Assembly (NCBI GenBank): GCA_018656005.1
Contig: JABHZW010000059.1
Coordinates: 1 to 40,122, forward strand
Direction: 5' to 3'
Origin: Candidatus Pseudelusimicrobium marinum
GTDB lineage: Bacteria; Elusimicrobiota; Elusimicrobia; Elusimicrobiales; Elusimicrobiaceae
Length of the DNA stretch: 40,122 nt
Program-made: the position numbers and the translations under genes
Shown: in pieces, positions 31,101-39,526 of the stretch
Numbering within the stretch: position 1 is the stretch's first letter
Layout: each line of letters begins with the position of its first letter
The notes under the pieces: generated by a model
What the model saw: only the letters and a program-made list of their open reading frames with translations
Databases searched by the model: none
What the model was told of the DNA's origin: nothing

Positions 31101-31804
31101 AAAATGTCCCCTATGTGTAGATGGTTAATATTGCCAAGTTCGTCTTCTAAAATTATTGCACCGTGCTTATCTACACCTTTAACTTTTGCTTCGTAAATTT
31201 TGTCTATATGTTGAAGTTTTATTTCTTTACCTATATATGCGAAATATTTATTGTAATCTTTTTGTATCGCTTCAAACCCTTTTGATAGAGTTTTTGGATA
31301 TAATCTAAAAAATTCTTTTAAAATTTGTGCTAAAAATTTTTCTTTATCTATATTTAAACCTAAAGTTTTTAGACTTATTGCTGGTTTTTCTATTTTATTT
31401 AGATTCTTTTGTTCTATGTTTATGCCTACACCTAAAATTATGGCTTTAAGTTTATTATTTTCAAACACTGTTTCAGATAATATGCCACATGCTTTTTTAT
31501 TATTCACCAAAATATCATTAGGCCACTTTATTTGCGGTTTTATGCTGTATTTTTCAATTGCCTTACATATAGCCACACTTATTGATTGTGTTAAATTGGG
31601 TATGTTTTTCCTCGAAAAAACCTTTGGTTTAAGTACAATTGAAAAATACAGCCCACCTTTATTAGAAACCCAAGTTCTTTGGTATCTGCCTCGTCCTTTG
31701 GTTTGAGTTTCTGCTATAATGACATCTTTATGTTTCAAAGAACTGTGATTTTCTTTTGAATAGGTGTTTGTAGAATCTAATTTTTTGAAAAAAATAATTC
31801 CCAT
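31097..31804 (-). CDS. birA: Biotin-protein ligase (class I, no DNA-binding domain)
   Basis: Attaches biotin to carrier domains such as that of OadA. GRGR at 37-40 in ETQTKGRGRYQRTW, catalytic lysine K93 in IKWPNDILVNNKKACGIL, and GVGINIE are all present. 235 residues: it starts directly in the catalytic domain, so it lacks the N-terminal winged helix of repressor-type BirA. First gene of the oad operon, overlapping oadG by four bases. No SD is visible; a -10-like TAAAAT lies 8 bases before the ATG. Confidence 0.94.
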   Translation of the reverse strand: MGIIFFKKLDSTNTYSKENHSSLKHKDVIIAETQTKGRGRYQRTWVSNKGGLYFSIVLKPKVFSRKNIPNLTQSISVAICKAIEKYSIKPQIKWPNDILVNNKKACGILSETVFENNKLKAIILGVGINIEQKNLNKIEKPAISLKTLGLNIDKEKFLAQILKEFFRLYPKTLSKGFEAIQKDYNKYFAYIGKEIKLQHIDKIYEAKVKGVDKHGAIILEDELGNINHLHIGDIL

Positions 31805-31842: not shown

Positions 31843-31846
31843 AAGC

Positions 31847-31877
31847 AAAAAACCCAGCTAAGTTAACTGGGTTTTTT
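31847..31877 (-). terminator. Terminator of the xre gene
   Basis: AAAAAACCCAG/CTGGGTTTTTT, an 11-bp stem including the T/A runs with a 9-base loop. It lies downstream of xre on the - strand and upstream of birA, so it separates the two transcripts. It would also work on the + strand. Confidence 0.85.
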
Positions 31878-31909
31878 ATTAGGTCTTTTTAGTGAAAATG
31901 TGGCAAGTT

Positions 31910-32149
31910 TTATTCTGTCTCTTCTAAAATTTTCGCCAAAGGCATTTTTAGTCCAGATGCTATCTGTTGTAAATTTAAAAACGATACATTTCGCTCTCCA
32001 CGCTCTATACCACCGATGTAATTTCGGTGTAAATCAACCTCAAATGCAAAGCTTTCTTGAGAATGTCCAGCCTCTTTTCTAAGAGTTCTTATCCTTTTTC
32101 CTAGCTTTTTTAATTTTACTTGATGCTTCGTTTCGTAATATATCGTCAT
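31910..32149 (-). CDS. XRE-family helix-turn-helix regulator
   Basis: 79-residue one-domain DNA-binding protein: LGKRIRTLRKEAGHSQESFAFEVDLHRNYIGGIERGERNVSFLNLQQIASGLKMPLAKI fits the Cro/C1 HTH across its whole length. It resembles small controller proteins of phages and restriction-modification systems, but no such genes are adjacent. The ATG lies 6 bases after a -10 TAAAAT with no SD, so the mRNA is probably leaderless. A perfect inverted repeat in its promoter suggests autoregulation. It is alone, bounded by its own terminator. Confidence 0.88.
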   Translation of the reverse strand: MTIYYETKHQVKLKKLGKRIRTLRKEAGHSQESFAFEVDLHRNYIGGIERGERNVSFLNLQQIASGLKMPLAKILEETE

Positions 32150-32166: not shown

Positions 32167-32201
32167 ATCACACTTATAGTTCTACACACGATAAGTGTGA
32201 T
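32167..32201. promoter_or_regulatory. Operator-like 11-bp inverted repeat
   Basis: ATCACACTTAT (32167-32177) and ATAAGTGTGAT (32191-32201) are exact inverted repeats 13 bases apart. Left arm ends 5 bases from the xre -10; right arm ends 6 bases from the divergent TATAAT. The likely binder is the XRE protein (inference). Confidence 0.75.
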
Positions 32202-32204
32202 ATG

Positions 32205-32213
32205 TGTTATAAT
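32205..32213 (+). promoter_or_regulatory. Extended -10 promoter, divergent from xre
   Basis: TGT-TATAAT on the + strand, the best -10 match in the region, with the TGn extension and a weak -35 (CACACG). Predicted start near 32220, at the first helix of the structured sequence. Confidence 0.6.
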
Positions 32214-32216
32214 AAA

Positions 32217-32332
32217 ACGAAGCTTTATTGATACTAGGGCAAGTGTCATACCCCCCATTTGCCTAAAACTATGCAAATAGTTTGCCCCTAACTTTTTTAG
32301 TTGGAGTGGAAGGAAAATTAATAAAGTTTCGT
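32217..32332 (+). ncRNA. Candidate structured RNA beside xre
   Basis: No protein reading frame is present. The sequence can fold as P1, 13 bp (32217-32229 with 32320-32332, one G-U). P2 is 6 bp (32237-32242 with 32259-32264, one G-U). P3 is 7 bp closed by a GCAA tetraloop (32266-32283), and P4 is 6 bp (32288-32293 with 32299-32304, one U-G). The G-U pairs and the GNRA loop exist only on the + strand, which also has the promoter. No known RNA family recognised. Alternative: a small element with 13-bp terminal inverted repeats. Confidence 0.45.
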
Positions 32333-32368
32333 AAAAAGCCCCGCAAAGTGCTTAGCATTTTGCGGGGC
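32333..32368 (-). terminator. Second terminator of the alcohol dehydrogenase gene
   Basis: GCCCCGCAAA pairs with TTTGCGGGGC, with an inner TGC/GCA. On the - strand the stem is followed by TTTTT (32337-32333). Its T-run abuts the right arm of the candidate RNA. Confidence 0.85.
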
Positions 32369-32381
32369 AATAAAATAAAAA

Positions 32382-32406
32382 TACTGCAATGCATATCAAT
32401 GCAGTA
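32382..32406 (-). terminator. First terminator of the alcohol dehydrogenase gene
   Basis: TACTGCA/TGCAGTA stem followed on the - strand by TTTTTATTTTA, 19 bases after the gene end. With the next hairpin it forms a tandem terminator. Confidence 0.7.
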
Positions 32407-32424
32407 ACACCCCCAAAATATTTT

Positions 32425-33573
32425 CTACAAACTGGCTTGGTATATTTTCTTAATATCCTGTTCAGTATAGTCATCAATATCTTTTAGTTCTAATAAGTCG
32501 TATGCTTGTTTTGCCATTGCATTTATATCTGGATTTTCTATACCAGCTTGTTTAAATGTTGTTGGTGTTTTAATTTCTTTATACCAAAGTTCTAAATTTT
32601 TAATGGCGGTTTCGGAATCTGGTTCACCATTAAAAATATTTTTTGAAAACACCTTTAACTTTTCAGAAAATTTTTCTTTATTAAATCTGAGCCATGCCGG
32701 TGTTATTATCGAAAGACCTGCACCGTGAGCAATGTCATAAATTCCACTAAGCGGATGTTCAATGCTATGACAATAAAGCCCTGCACCTTTCAGACCAATC
32801 ACACTAAGCCAATTCCACGCCATAGATGCACACCACATAAATGATGCACGAGCTTCATAATTTTTTGGATTTTTCTGTATAGCTTTCACACTTTCTATAA
32901 GCGCTTTTATAAGTCCTTCTATATAATTATATTGAACGGGTGCAAAAGTTTCTTGCGATGTAAAATAAATTTCTAATAAATGCGACATTATATCGCTACT
33001 AGCATAAGCCAATTGATTTTCGGTTAAGGTGTAAGTATATTCTGGATCCATAAAAGAAACTTTTGGCGATAAATATGGCGATGCATAGCCAGTTTTATAA
33101 TTATTTTCATCATTAGTTATTACAGTTCCAAAATTTGTTTCAGACCCAGCTGCCGGTATAGTTAAAACCGTTATTATAGGTAAAGCTTTTGTTATTTTTT
33201 GATTATTTAAGAAAGCTTCCCAAATATCAAAGTTTGCAAGTGTGCCACCTGCTATGGCTTTGCTTTCGTCGATAACACTACCACCACCTACTGCTAAAAT
33301 TAAATCTACACTGTTTTCTTTCGCTTTTTTTATGCCTTGTCGCACATGCGATAGTTTTGGGTTTGGCGAAACGCCCTCGTGTTCTATAATTTCTATGTTT
33401 TGTTGTTGAAGTTGATCTAAAACCTGTTGATATATACCATTTTTTTTGATGGAATTTTTGCCGTAGACAAGTAAAACTTTTTTGCCGTAGTTTTTTACTT
33501 CTACACCCAAATTTTTTACAACTCCTTTACCAAAAACTATTTTTGTTGGTAAGCTATAAGTAAAATTTTGCAT
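32425..33573 (-). CDS. Iron-containing alcohol dehydrogenase (YqhD/butanol dehydrogenase type)
   Basis: NAD(P)H-dependent reduction of aldehydes to alcohols, a fermentation or detoxification step. NAD(P) motif GGGS at 96-99 (AVGGGSVIDESK). Metal ligands D194 and H198 (SSDIMSH), H273 (SIEHPLSG), and H283 (IAHGAG) follow the YqhD pattern. 382 residues, starting MQNFTYSLPTKIVFGKG. GGAGG lies 9 bases upstream, with an out-of-frame ATG between them. Monocistronic, ended by two terminators. Confidence 0.93.
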   Translation of the reverse strand: MQNFTYSLPTKIVFGKGVVKNLGVEVKNYGKKVLLVYGKNSIKKNGIYQQVLDQLQQQNIEIIEHEGVSPNPKLSHVRQGIKKAKENSVDLILAVGGGSVIDESKAIAGGTLANFDIWEAFLNNQKITKALPIITVLTIPAAGSETNFGTVITNDENNYKTGYASPYLSPKVSFMDPEYTYTLTENQLAYASSDIMSHLLEIYFTSQETFAPVQYNYIEGLIKALIESVKAIQKNPKNYEARASFMWCASMAWNWLSVIGLKGAGLYCHSIEHPLSGIYDIAHGAGLSIITPAWLRFNKEKFSEKLKVFSKNIFNGEPDSETAIKNLELWYKEIKTPTTFKQAGIENPDINAMAKQAYDLLELKDIDDYTEQDIKKIYQASL

Positions 33574-35551: not shown

Positions 35552-35944
35552 ATGCCTGTAAAAAAGAAAACAAAAAAATGCGCAACTAAAAAATGCGCAA
35601 AAAGAAAAGTAGCTAAAAAGAGAAAAGTAGTAAAGAAAAAAGTAAAAAAAGCTGCAGCAAAGAGAAAAGTAGCTAAAAAGAAAAAACCAGCTAAAAAGAA
35701 AAAGGTGGCTAAGAAAAAACCAGCTAAAAAGAAAAAAGTAGCTAAAAAGAAAAAGCCAGCCAAAAAAAAGAAAGTAGCTAAAAAAAGAAAACCAGCTAAA
35801 AAGAAAAAAGTAGCTAAAAAGAAGCCAGCTAAAAGAAAAGTAGCTAAAAAGAAAGTAACTAAGAAAAAACCAGCAAAGAAAAAAGCAAAAAAAGCTACAA
35901 AAAAGAAGCCGGCAAAAAGAAGAACAGCTAAAAAAAGAAAATAA
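35552..35944 (+). CDS. Histone H1-like lysine-rich protein
   Basis: 130 residues consisting almost only of Lys, Ala, Pro, Val and Arg, in about ten imperfect KKPAKKKKVAK units. It is like chlamydial Hc1/Hc2 and other bacterial H1-like DNA-compacting proteins. Two cysteines occur near the start (KKCATKKCAK). AAAGGAG lies 8 bases upstream, with a strong promoter and terminator, so it is an independent and probably well-expressed gene. Low complexity makes homology searches unreliable; DNA binding is inferred from composition. Confidence 0.85.
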   Translation: MPVKKKTKKCATKKCAKRKVAKKRKVVKKKVKKAAAKRKVAKKKKPAKKKKVAKKKPAKKKKVAKKKKPAKKKKVAKKRKPAKKKKVAKKKPAKRKVAKKKVTKKKPAKKKAKKATKKKPAKRRTAKKRK

Positions 35945-36879: not shown

Positions 36880-37473
36880 ATGATAAAGAAAATAGTAATA
36901 ATACCTGCAATTTTGAGCTTTTTTATTATAAGTTGTAATTTATTTGCAGAAGCTAATATTGAAAACAAAATTACAAGTATGATTGAACAAAACTCTACTA
37001 CTTGTGAAAAATATTATGGTAGTAAGTATTTTGCAAATAAAGAAGGTACTAAATGGACACCTATGCTATATACGGATAATAAATGTACAACAGAGTTTAC
37101 GGGTGAAAATCTTTTCTTAAATAATAGCAAGATAATTAATTTAACACCAATATCTGAGTTGAAGAATTTATTGCATCTTTATTTGGGTAATAATCAGTTG
37201 AAAAACATAGAACTATTATCTAATTTGACGAACTTAGAGGTTCTCGATGTGAGTTATAATTACTTAACAAGTATAAAGCCAGTATCTGGTTTTGAGAAAT
37301 TAAAATTTCTCAAGGCGGATCATAACCGATTGACAAATATAAGTTCAATATCTGATTTAGAGGATTTAGAGTATGTTGATGTGAGTTATAACCAAATACT
37401 AAGGATGGAACCAATGCCTAATCTAAATAAATTAAGGGAATTTATTTTGGTAGGTAATCCAATAATGAAGTAA
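36880..37473 (+). CDS. Secreted leucine-rich-repeat protein (internalin-like repeats)
   Basis: 197 residues. The N-terminal hydrophobic signal has a possible lipobox (FIISC, Cys19) or a signal-peptidase site near FAEA. From about residue 88 there are five tandem 22-residue repeats of internalin type (LTPISELKNLLHLYLGNNQL, LSNLTNLEVLDVSYNYLTS, and so on), ending GNPIMK. Cysteines near 42 and 69 may pair. Likely a surface protein for binding other proteins; partner unknown. AGGAG lies before the start and the gene has its own promoter, so it is a single-gene unit. Confidence 0.85.
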   Translation: MIKKIVIIPAILSFFIISCNLFAEANIENKITSMIEQNSTTCEKYYGSKYFANKEGTKWTPMLYTDNKCTTEFTGENLFLNNSKIINLTPISELKNLLHLYLGNNQLKNIELLSNLTNLEVLDVSYNYLTSIKPVSGFEKLKFLKADHNRLTNISSISDLEDLEYVDVSYNQILRMEPMPNLNKLREFILVGNPIMK

Positions 37474-38452: not shown

Positions 38453-39526
38453 ATGCAAAACCTGAATAAAACCGCTCTATATAATGAAATGGAAAAAGTT
38501 GGCGGTAAAATGGTAGATTTTTTCGGCTGGGCATTACCAATTCATTTTGGAAGCATACTTGCCGAACATAAAATAGTGAGAGAGCATTGCGGTATTTTTG
38601 ATGTATCACATATGGGACAAATTTTTGTCGAAGGTAAAGATGCCTATAAATTTATTCAATTAATAAATACAAATAATGTCAAAAATGAAGCTGGACGAGG
38701 TGCATATTCACATATTCCTAATGATAATGGCGGAATTATTGACGATGTTATAAATTTTTGTCTATCTGAAGAAAAATTTTTGATAATAGTAAATGCATCT
38801 ACTCAAGAGAAAGATTTTGAATGGTTTAATAAAAAAGCAACTGGTTTAGATGTAAAAATCACTAATGAGAGCAAAAATTTTTCTATGTTAGCAGTTCAAG
38901 GGCCAGAAGCTATGCAGATAATAGAAAAATTAGAACCAAAAGCACTAGAAATTAAAAGGTTTGGCATTTTAGCTTGCCAGATTTTTGGGCAAGATAGTTT
39001 TATCACAAGAACAGGTTATACAGGCGAAGACGGGGTGGAAGTGATTATTCCCCATTCCACAGCCCCAAAAATCTGGCAATTCTTCTTAGAAAACGGCTCA
39101 AAACCATGCGGACTAGGTGCAAGAGACATTTTACGGCTTGAAGCTGGCTATTTATTATACGGTGCAGATATTGACGATACTCATAGTCCAATAGAAGCAG
39201 GATATGGCTGGGTAGTTAAGCTGAAAAACGACAGAGAATATCCAAGCAAAGAAATCTTTGCTAAACAAAAAGCTGAAGGGGTAAAAACAAAATTGACAGG
39301 TTTTGTTGTTAGTGGTGGTGTACCTCGTTCTGGTTGCGAAATTTTATATAATGGTAATGTAGTGGGCAAACTTACTAGTGGAGTATTTTCGCCACTATTT
39401 AAAGGTATTGGTGTTGGATATATTCCAACAGATTTGCCAGAAGATGCGGAATTTGAAATTAATTTTGGAAATAGAATGGGTAAAGCTCAAAAAACTAAGA
39501 TCCCATTTTATAACAACAAAGTTTAA
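38453..39526 (+). CDS. gcvT: Glycine cleavage system T protein (aminomethyltransferase)
   Basis: Releases ammonia from aminomethyl-lipoyl-H protein and makes methylene-THF. 357 residues; typical blocks KVGGKMVDFFGWALPIHFG, HCGIFDVSHMGQI, FSMLAVQGPEA, TRTGYTGEDGVEVI, and GLGARDILRLEAGYLLYG, with the C-terminal YPSKEIF. GGAGG lies 9 bases upstream. First gene of gcvT-gcvH-gcvPA. Confidence 0.96.
   Translation: MQNLNKTALYNEMEKVGGKMVDFFGWALPIHFGSILAEHKIVREHCGIFDVSHMGQIFVEGKDAYKFIQLINTNNVKNEAGRGAYSHIPNDNGGIIDDVINFCLSEEKFLIIVNASTQEKDFEWFNKKATGLDVKITNESKNFSMLAVQGPEAMQIIEKLEPKALEIKRFGILACQIFGQDSFITRTGYTGEDGVEVIIPHSTAPKIWQFFLENGSKPCGLGARDILRLEAGYLLYGADIDDTHSPIEAGYGWVVKLKNDREYPSKEIFAKQKAEGVKTKLTGFVVSGGVPRSGCEILYNGNVVGKLTSGVFSPLFKGIGVGYIPTDLPEDAEFEINFGNRMGKAQKTKIPFYNNKV

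Follow-up and report, generated by a model that had tools for sequence, protein, structure and literature searches.

A candidate structured RNA divergent from a solitary C-protein-like regulator in Candidatus Pseudelusimicrobium marinum

The window analyzed is a 40,122-nucleotide stretch of the Candidatus Pseudelusimicrobium marinum genome (assembly GCA_018656005.1, contig JABHZW010000059.1). According to our own gene list, 6.7% of the window is non-coding, and its second longest gap is a 275-base interval that separates a regulator gene (31910–32149, − strand) from an iron-containing alcohol dehydrogenase gene (32425–33573, − strand). The gap contains, in order, a two-box operator (32167–32201), an extended −10 element on the + strand, a 116-base structured element (32217–32332, + strand) and a GC-rich hairpin (32338–32368). 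A terminator-like hairpin located by the terminator scan behind the regulator gene (31846–31878, − strand; 15 pairs with a T-run) separates it from a biotin ligase gene. The genes adjoining the element are those for the regulator, the biotin ligase and the alcohol dehydrogenase, and the candidate RNA lies clear of every annotated ORF in the window. Elsewhere, the window encodes a lysine/alanine-rich repeat protein of 130 residues with a histone H1-like composition (35552–35944) and a leucine-rich-repeat protein (36880–37473) with partial similarity, far below cut-offs, to internalin-type repeat models.

Folding confirmed the structured element. The + strand folds at −38.9 kcal/mol with a z score of −6.2 against 200 dinucleotide shuffles, and the minimum free energy (MFE) and centroid structures are identical. 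A 16-pair closing helix, P1 (32217–32232/32317–32332), which has 13 pairs if the RNA starts near 32220, encloses three hairpins: P2 (32237–32245/32256–32264; 9 pairs), P3 (32266–32272/32277–32283; 7 pairs and a GCAA loop) and P4 (32285–32293/32299–32309; 9 pairs and two bulges). Pair probabilities are at least 0.72 for every pair of P1–P4 and mostly exceed 0.95. Longer transcripts beginning at 32220 retain P1–P4 and gain the intact downstream hairpin, with z scores of −6.6 and −7.2. The − strand of the element folds at −30.4 kcal/mol with a z score of −3.0. The two wobble pairs in P1, two in P2 and one in P4 are all G-U on the + strand and A-C on the − strand, and a sixth, in the hairpin at 32338–32368, is likewise G-U on the + strand. 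The wobble orientation leans only slightly toward a + strand RNA, since the element had been picked for its + fold. The architecture described in the earlier note, a 13-pair closing helix with three hairpins of which one has a GCAA loop, was thus recovered, and its assignment to the + strand agrees with both the wobbles and the z scores.

In block-wise shuffles of the 40 kb, structures that combine three or more hairpins, ΔG ≤ −30 and a closing helix of 13 or more uninterrupted pairs arose on average 0.17 times per strand; at ΔG ≤ −38, with the helix and hairpin criteria unchanged, the mean was 0.08 per 40-kb strand. The real window contains two more folds of the looser kind (ΔG ≤ −30), both inside genes. 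These + strand folds, at 31544–31652 in the biotin ligase gene and 38974–39079 in a gcvT-like gene, have closing helices of 16–17 uninterrupted pairs and three hairpins, and they are a warning about evidence that consists of a fold only. A coarse z scan, slightly incomplete at 1791 of 2000 windows, located six unrelated places with equal or lower z. The fold at 32217–32332 is therefore unusual, but alone it is not decisive because comparable folds occur in genes of the window. Its position in a 275-base gap of a gene-dense window, aligned with a promoter, strengthens the case for it.

The regulator is a 79-residue protein that matches the HTH_3 (9.8e-13) and PADLOC Control_protein (9.4e-21) profiles and, among solved structures, C.AhdI (7.5e-14) and C.BclI (1.3e-11). 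Short length, an XRE/HTH fold class and a C-protein profile match place it in the controller (C) protein family. No restriction endonuclease or methylase gene was recognized beside it among the window ORFs, and the genome's two PF01555 methylases lie on other contigs without a two-arm operator. Judged by sequence, the regulator is a solitary, C.AhdI-like relative of the C proteins and not part of a restriction-modification system. The earlier note had called it an XRE regulator sharing an operator with the RNA; the shared operator stands, and the profile and structure matches refine the family assignment.

The operator is an inverted repeat (32167–32180/32188–32201, 93% complementary) that reads ATCACACTTATCGTGTGTAG-AA-CTATAAGTGTGAT in the orientation of the regulator gene. 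The distal box, ATCACACTTATCGTGTGTAG (32182–32201, − strand), overlaps the −35 region of the candidate RNA promoter, and the second box, CTATAAGTGTGAT (32167–32179, − strand), adjoins the regulator's own promoter. Paired boxes of the type expected for a C protein are thus present at 32167–32201 as a putative binding site. The two-arm operator occurs once in the genome, and the stretches around two other XRE genes (C46, C25) have no two-arm operator in common with the regulator locus. At least five other phyla have the motif TCACACTTATCGTGTGTAG before homologues of the regulator. Written as TCACACT(T/C/G)AT(A/C)GTGTGTA it precedes C-like homologues in Cyanobacteria, Planctomycetes, Acidobacteria, Alphaproteobacteria, a Nitrospirae genome and Candidatus Fraserbacteria, the last of which encodes the closest homologue found (64% identity), also with the motif before its gene. 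The planctomycete sites, like the window, keep the second box as well (ATAAGTGTGATGT). The C-like genes that follow the motif (window, 32182–32201; loci L060–L118) look solitary, with restriction-gene linkage examined for a few neighbors.

The extended −10 element, TGTTATAAT, is an exact match at 32205–32213 on the + strand; TGnTATAAT occurs five times in the window. It predicts a start near 32220 on the 5′ side of P1, where the earlier note had put it, and its TATAAT stands 20 nt from the operator box. The same gene-operator pair occurs in another genus of the same family, in which all 13 C-like loci (L029–L033, L173–L180) have a divergent perfect TATAAT. The spacing from the start of the nearer box is 20–22 nt in 12 of these loci and 31 nt in one, and 11 have the extended TGnTATAAT. 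The loci are related to one another, so they are not 13 independent observations. As far as comparative geometry goes, the candidate RNA has a promoter of its own, as a bacterial small regulatory RNA should. From the divergent promoter kept in relatives, the operator and the C-like regulator, we infer with good reason that the + strand would be transcribed from about 32220 under C-like control.

The output of this promoter in the relatives, judged from their sequences, is a protein and not an RNA. At all 13 loci the divergent promoter is followed by a Shine-Dalgarno sequence, an ATG and a protein gene, which in 11 is clearly prepilin-like (GFTLIELLVVVLIIG); the single prepilin-like product tested matched Pfam N_methyl at 6.5e-07. 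Locus L032 has a prepilin-like start, yet its longest ORF begins further in, and the product at L176 resembles a lipoprotein. The arrangement in most of the 13 is a solitary C-like gene, a C-box and a divergent TATAAT before a prepilin-like gene, and the sister-genus loci apparently use a C protein, outside any restriction-modification setting, to switch a pilin-like gene. In the window, no credible ORF was found behind the divergent promoter. A 41-codon ORF beginning with TTG crosses the 3′ half of the element (32282–32407) and was rejected, with no Shine-Dalgarno sequence visible ahead of its TTG. At the proper distance downstream of the purine-rich stretch at 32308–32314, only ATA or ATT occurs; for these two reasons a peptide from this region is unlikely. 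Across the family the biotin ligase gene retains the same downstream partner, and upstream of the ligase gene the relatives have other genes, often prepilin-like or what we take, from reading the sequence, to be pdxA-like. Because of these other genes, the regulator-RNA unit at the biotin ligase site is specific to the lineage of the window.

Searches for relatives of the RNA gave no match. Rfam returned nothing at the gathering score, and the best permissive matches were far below cut-offs, as the earlier note had anticipated in recognizing no known family. A structure model was built from the single sequence and searched with strict filters over the window, 72 loci, the family and the phylum; it found no homologue in 90 family and 341 phylum genomes and none beside C-like homologues, although distant relatives could be missed with such filters and a single-sequence model. 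No DNA similarity to the element was found in phages, plasmids or relatives, and the RNA was absent from IMG/VR searched by protein and DNA. In the collection, the genus is represented by this genome alone. The idea of a conserved RNA ahead of the cyanobacterial C-like genes was rejected, the region upstream of their operator aligning only among close relatives. Support for the RNA itself does not extend beyond one genome.

The main structural objection to a small RNA is the missing + strand U-tract. Neither inspection of the sequence nor the terminator scan found a + strand hairpin with a U-tract behind the element, so the intrinsic terminator that would define the 3′ end of a typical small regulatory RNA is missing; Rho-dependent termination or processing could set that end instead. 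The GC-rich inverted repeat at 32338–32368 forms 14 pairs on the + strand (one G-U), precedes TTTTT on the − strand, has no U-tract on the + strand and is not listed by the terminator scan. On the − strand it may serve as the terminator of the alcohol dehydrogenase gene, and on the + strand it could, in the fold model, add a fifth helix to the RNA. A duplex between the RNA and the regulator's mRNA, the sole target tried, was predicted at −23 kcal/mol (p 0.06–0.08).

The explanation we prefer, tentatively and with some doubt, is a small regulatory RNA gene that is specific to this lineage and controlled by a solitary C-protein-like regulator, its function being a guess. In this mechanism, RNA polymerase would start near 32220 on the + strand, and the first part of the transcript would be the compact P1 helix, which closes a four-way junction. 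By occupying the distal box, the C-like protein would cover the −35 region of the RNA promoter and should therefore block it, and the second box would sit by the regulator's own start. In this autoregulated switch, the simplest circuit, a low regulator level would allow the RNA to be made and a rising level would turn it off; less simply, the regulator may activate rather than repress the RNA promoter. We guess that the stable RNA might act in trans by base pairing and that the likeliest contact would be the C-rich P2 loop UCAUACCCCC (32246–32255). The strength of the fold, its strand bias and well-defined pairs, the C-like regulator, the conserved operator and the promoter geometry favor a small RNA; against it stand the lack of a homologue and of a U-tract terminator, the protein output of the promoter in relatives and the similar folds in genes. 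The promoter, operator and fold partly support the small regulatory RNA system that the earlier note proposed, in one genome and with the function guessed.

The main rival, less probable than the small RNA gene but a serious contender, is a leftover promoter. A former divergent protein gene would have been lost, and the promoter would read degenerate intergenic DNA into a non-functional transcript whose fold is partly chance. The protein gene at the promoter of 13 of 13 relatives, an RNA with neither relative nor terminator and the comparable folds arising by chance in the window all fit this account. A strong, clean, strand-biased fold that starts at the promoter exceeds what decay should leave, however, and the 116 bases showed no trace of a prepilin gene. 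It is improbable that the element is a MITE-like or other mobile inverted-repeat element inserted between two genes with P1 as its terminal inverted repeat. P1 does amount to a 16-bp imperfect terminal repeat around a short non-coding core, but the further copies that the earlier note had called for are missing: the element is single copy in a 93% complete genome. Setting the element itself aside, the terminal repeat (≤2 mismatches) is no commoner than a reversed control pattern, and the only candidate target-site duplication, AAA in an A-rich context, is not convincing. There is even less to recommend a role on the − strand or as DNA, in which the element would form a structured leader on the mRNA of the regulator, or a cruciform. 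The element does precede the regulator gene on that gene's strand and has a − fold z of −3.0, but the operator and likely promoter stand between the two, so that the element would not be in that mRNA, and the wobbles favor the + strand. Restriction-modification systems are where C proteins are usually found, and EcoRI and Eco29kI do employ antisense RNAs (PMC3874152), but the unit has no toxin, nuclease, methylase or target gene and the two-arm operator stands apart from the PF01555 methylases, which makes a toxin-antitoxin or restriction-linked RNA, including the antitoxin-like RNA once suggested, the least plausible reading of all. Neither this nor the MITE reading has support. The RNA of a type III toxin-antitoxin system was also rejected, the element having no tandem repeats and the adjacent genes no ToxN-like nuclease.

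Returning to the small RNA gene, its parts can be compared with known systems. C proteins bind paired boxes, first activating and then repressing their own gene (PMC12707154). The regulator shares with the C proteins of type II systems (C.AhdI, C.BclI, C.Esp1396I) its sequence family, its size, a two-box operator by its own promoter and a divergent promoter under the same operator. It differs in having no restriction or methylase gene alongside and in its output, a candidate RNA here and a prepilin-like gene in relatives. BswR, an XRE regulator of Pseudomonas aeruginosa which the authors of the study compared with C proteins in structure, activates the small RNA gene rsmZ by binding ahead of it (PMC3985676), a case of an XRE regulator controlling a structured small RNA. 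BswR differs in that its activating site is distant (−226 to −208) and apparently in that its gene and rsmZ are not a divergent pair around a common operator. No relationship of the element to rsmZ was found, the element having no Rfam match. The antisense RNAs that control EcoRI and Eco29kI (PMC3874152) likewise add an RNA layer to a restriction-type circuit, but they are antisense to restriction or modification genes, unlike the candidate RNA, which runs across no annotated ORF. With these precedents, a C-like regulator over an RNA would, by analogy, be a known type of control with an unusual partner.

As the switch of the relatives drives a prepilin-like gene, the RNA would take over the output position behind a divergent promoter that already existed. 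A more specific proposal, which we consider unlikely, is that a four-way-junction RNA took the place of the divergent protein gene in a solitary C-protein switch, creating a regulator/RNA toggle with a captured restriction-type controller. To our knowledge, a toggle with a restriction-type controller over a non-coding RNA has not been described. If the RNA is non-functional, what was found about the operator and promoter remains valid, and the RNA is reduced to a curiosity. If the proposal is true, solitary C proteins would be used outside restriction-modification and would swap outputs behind one operator and promoter, a prepilin-like protein in one genus and a structured RNA in another, and with so conserved an operator the circuit lends itself readily to testing.
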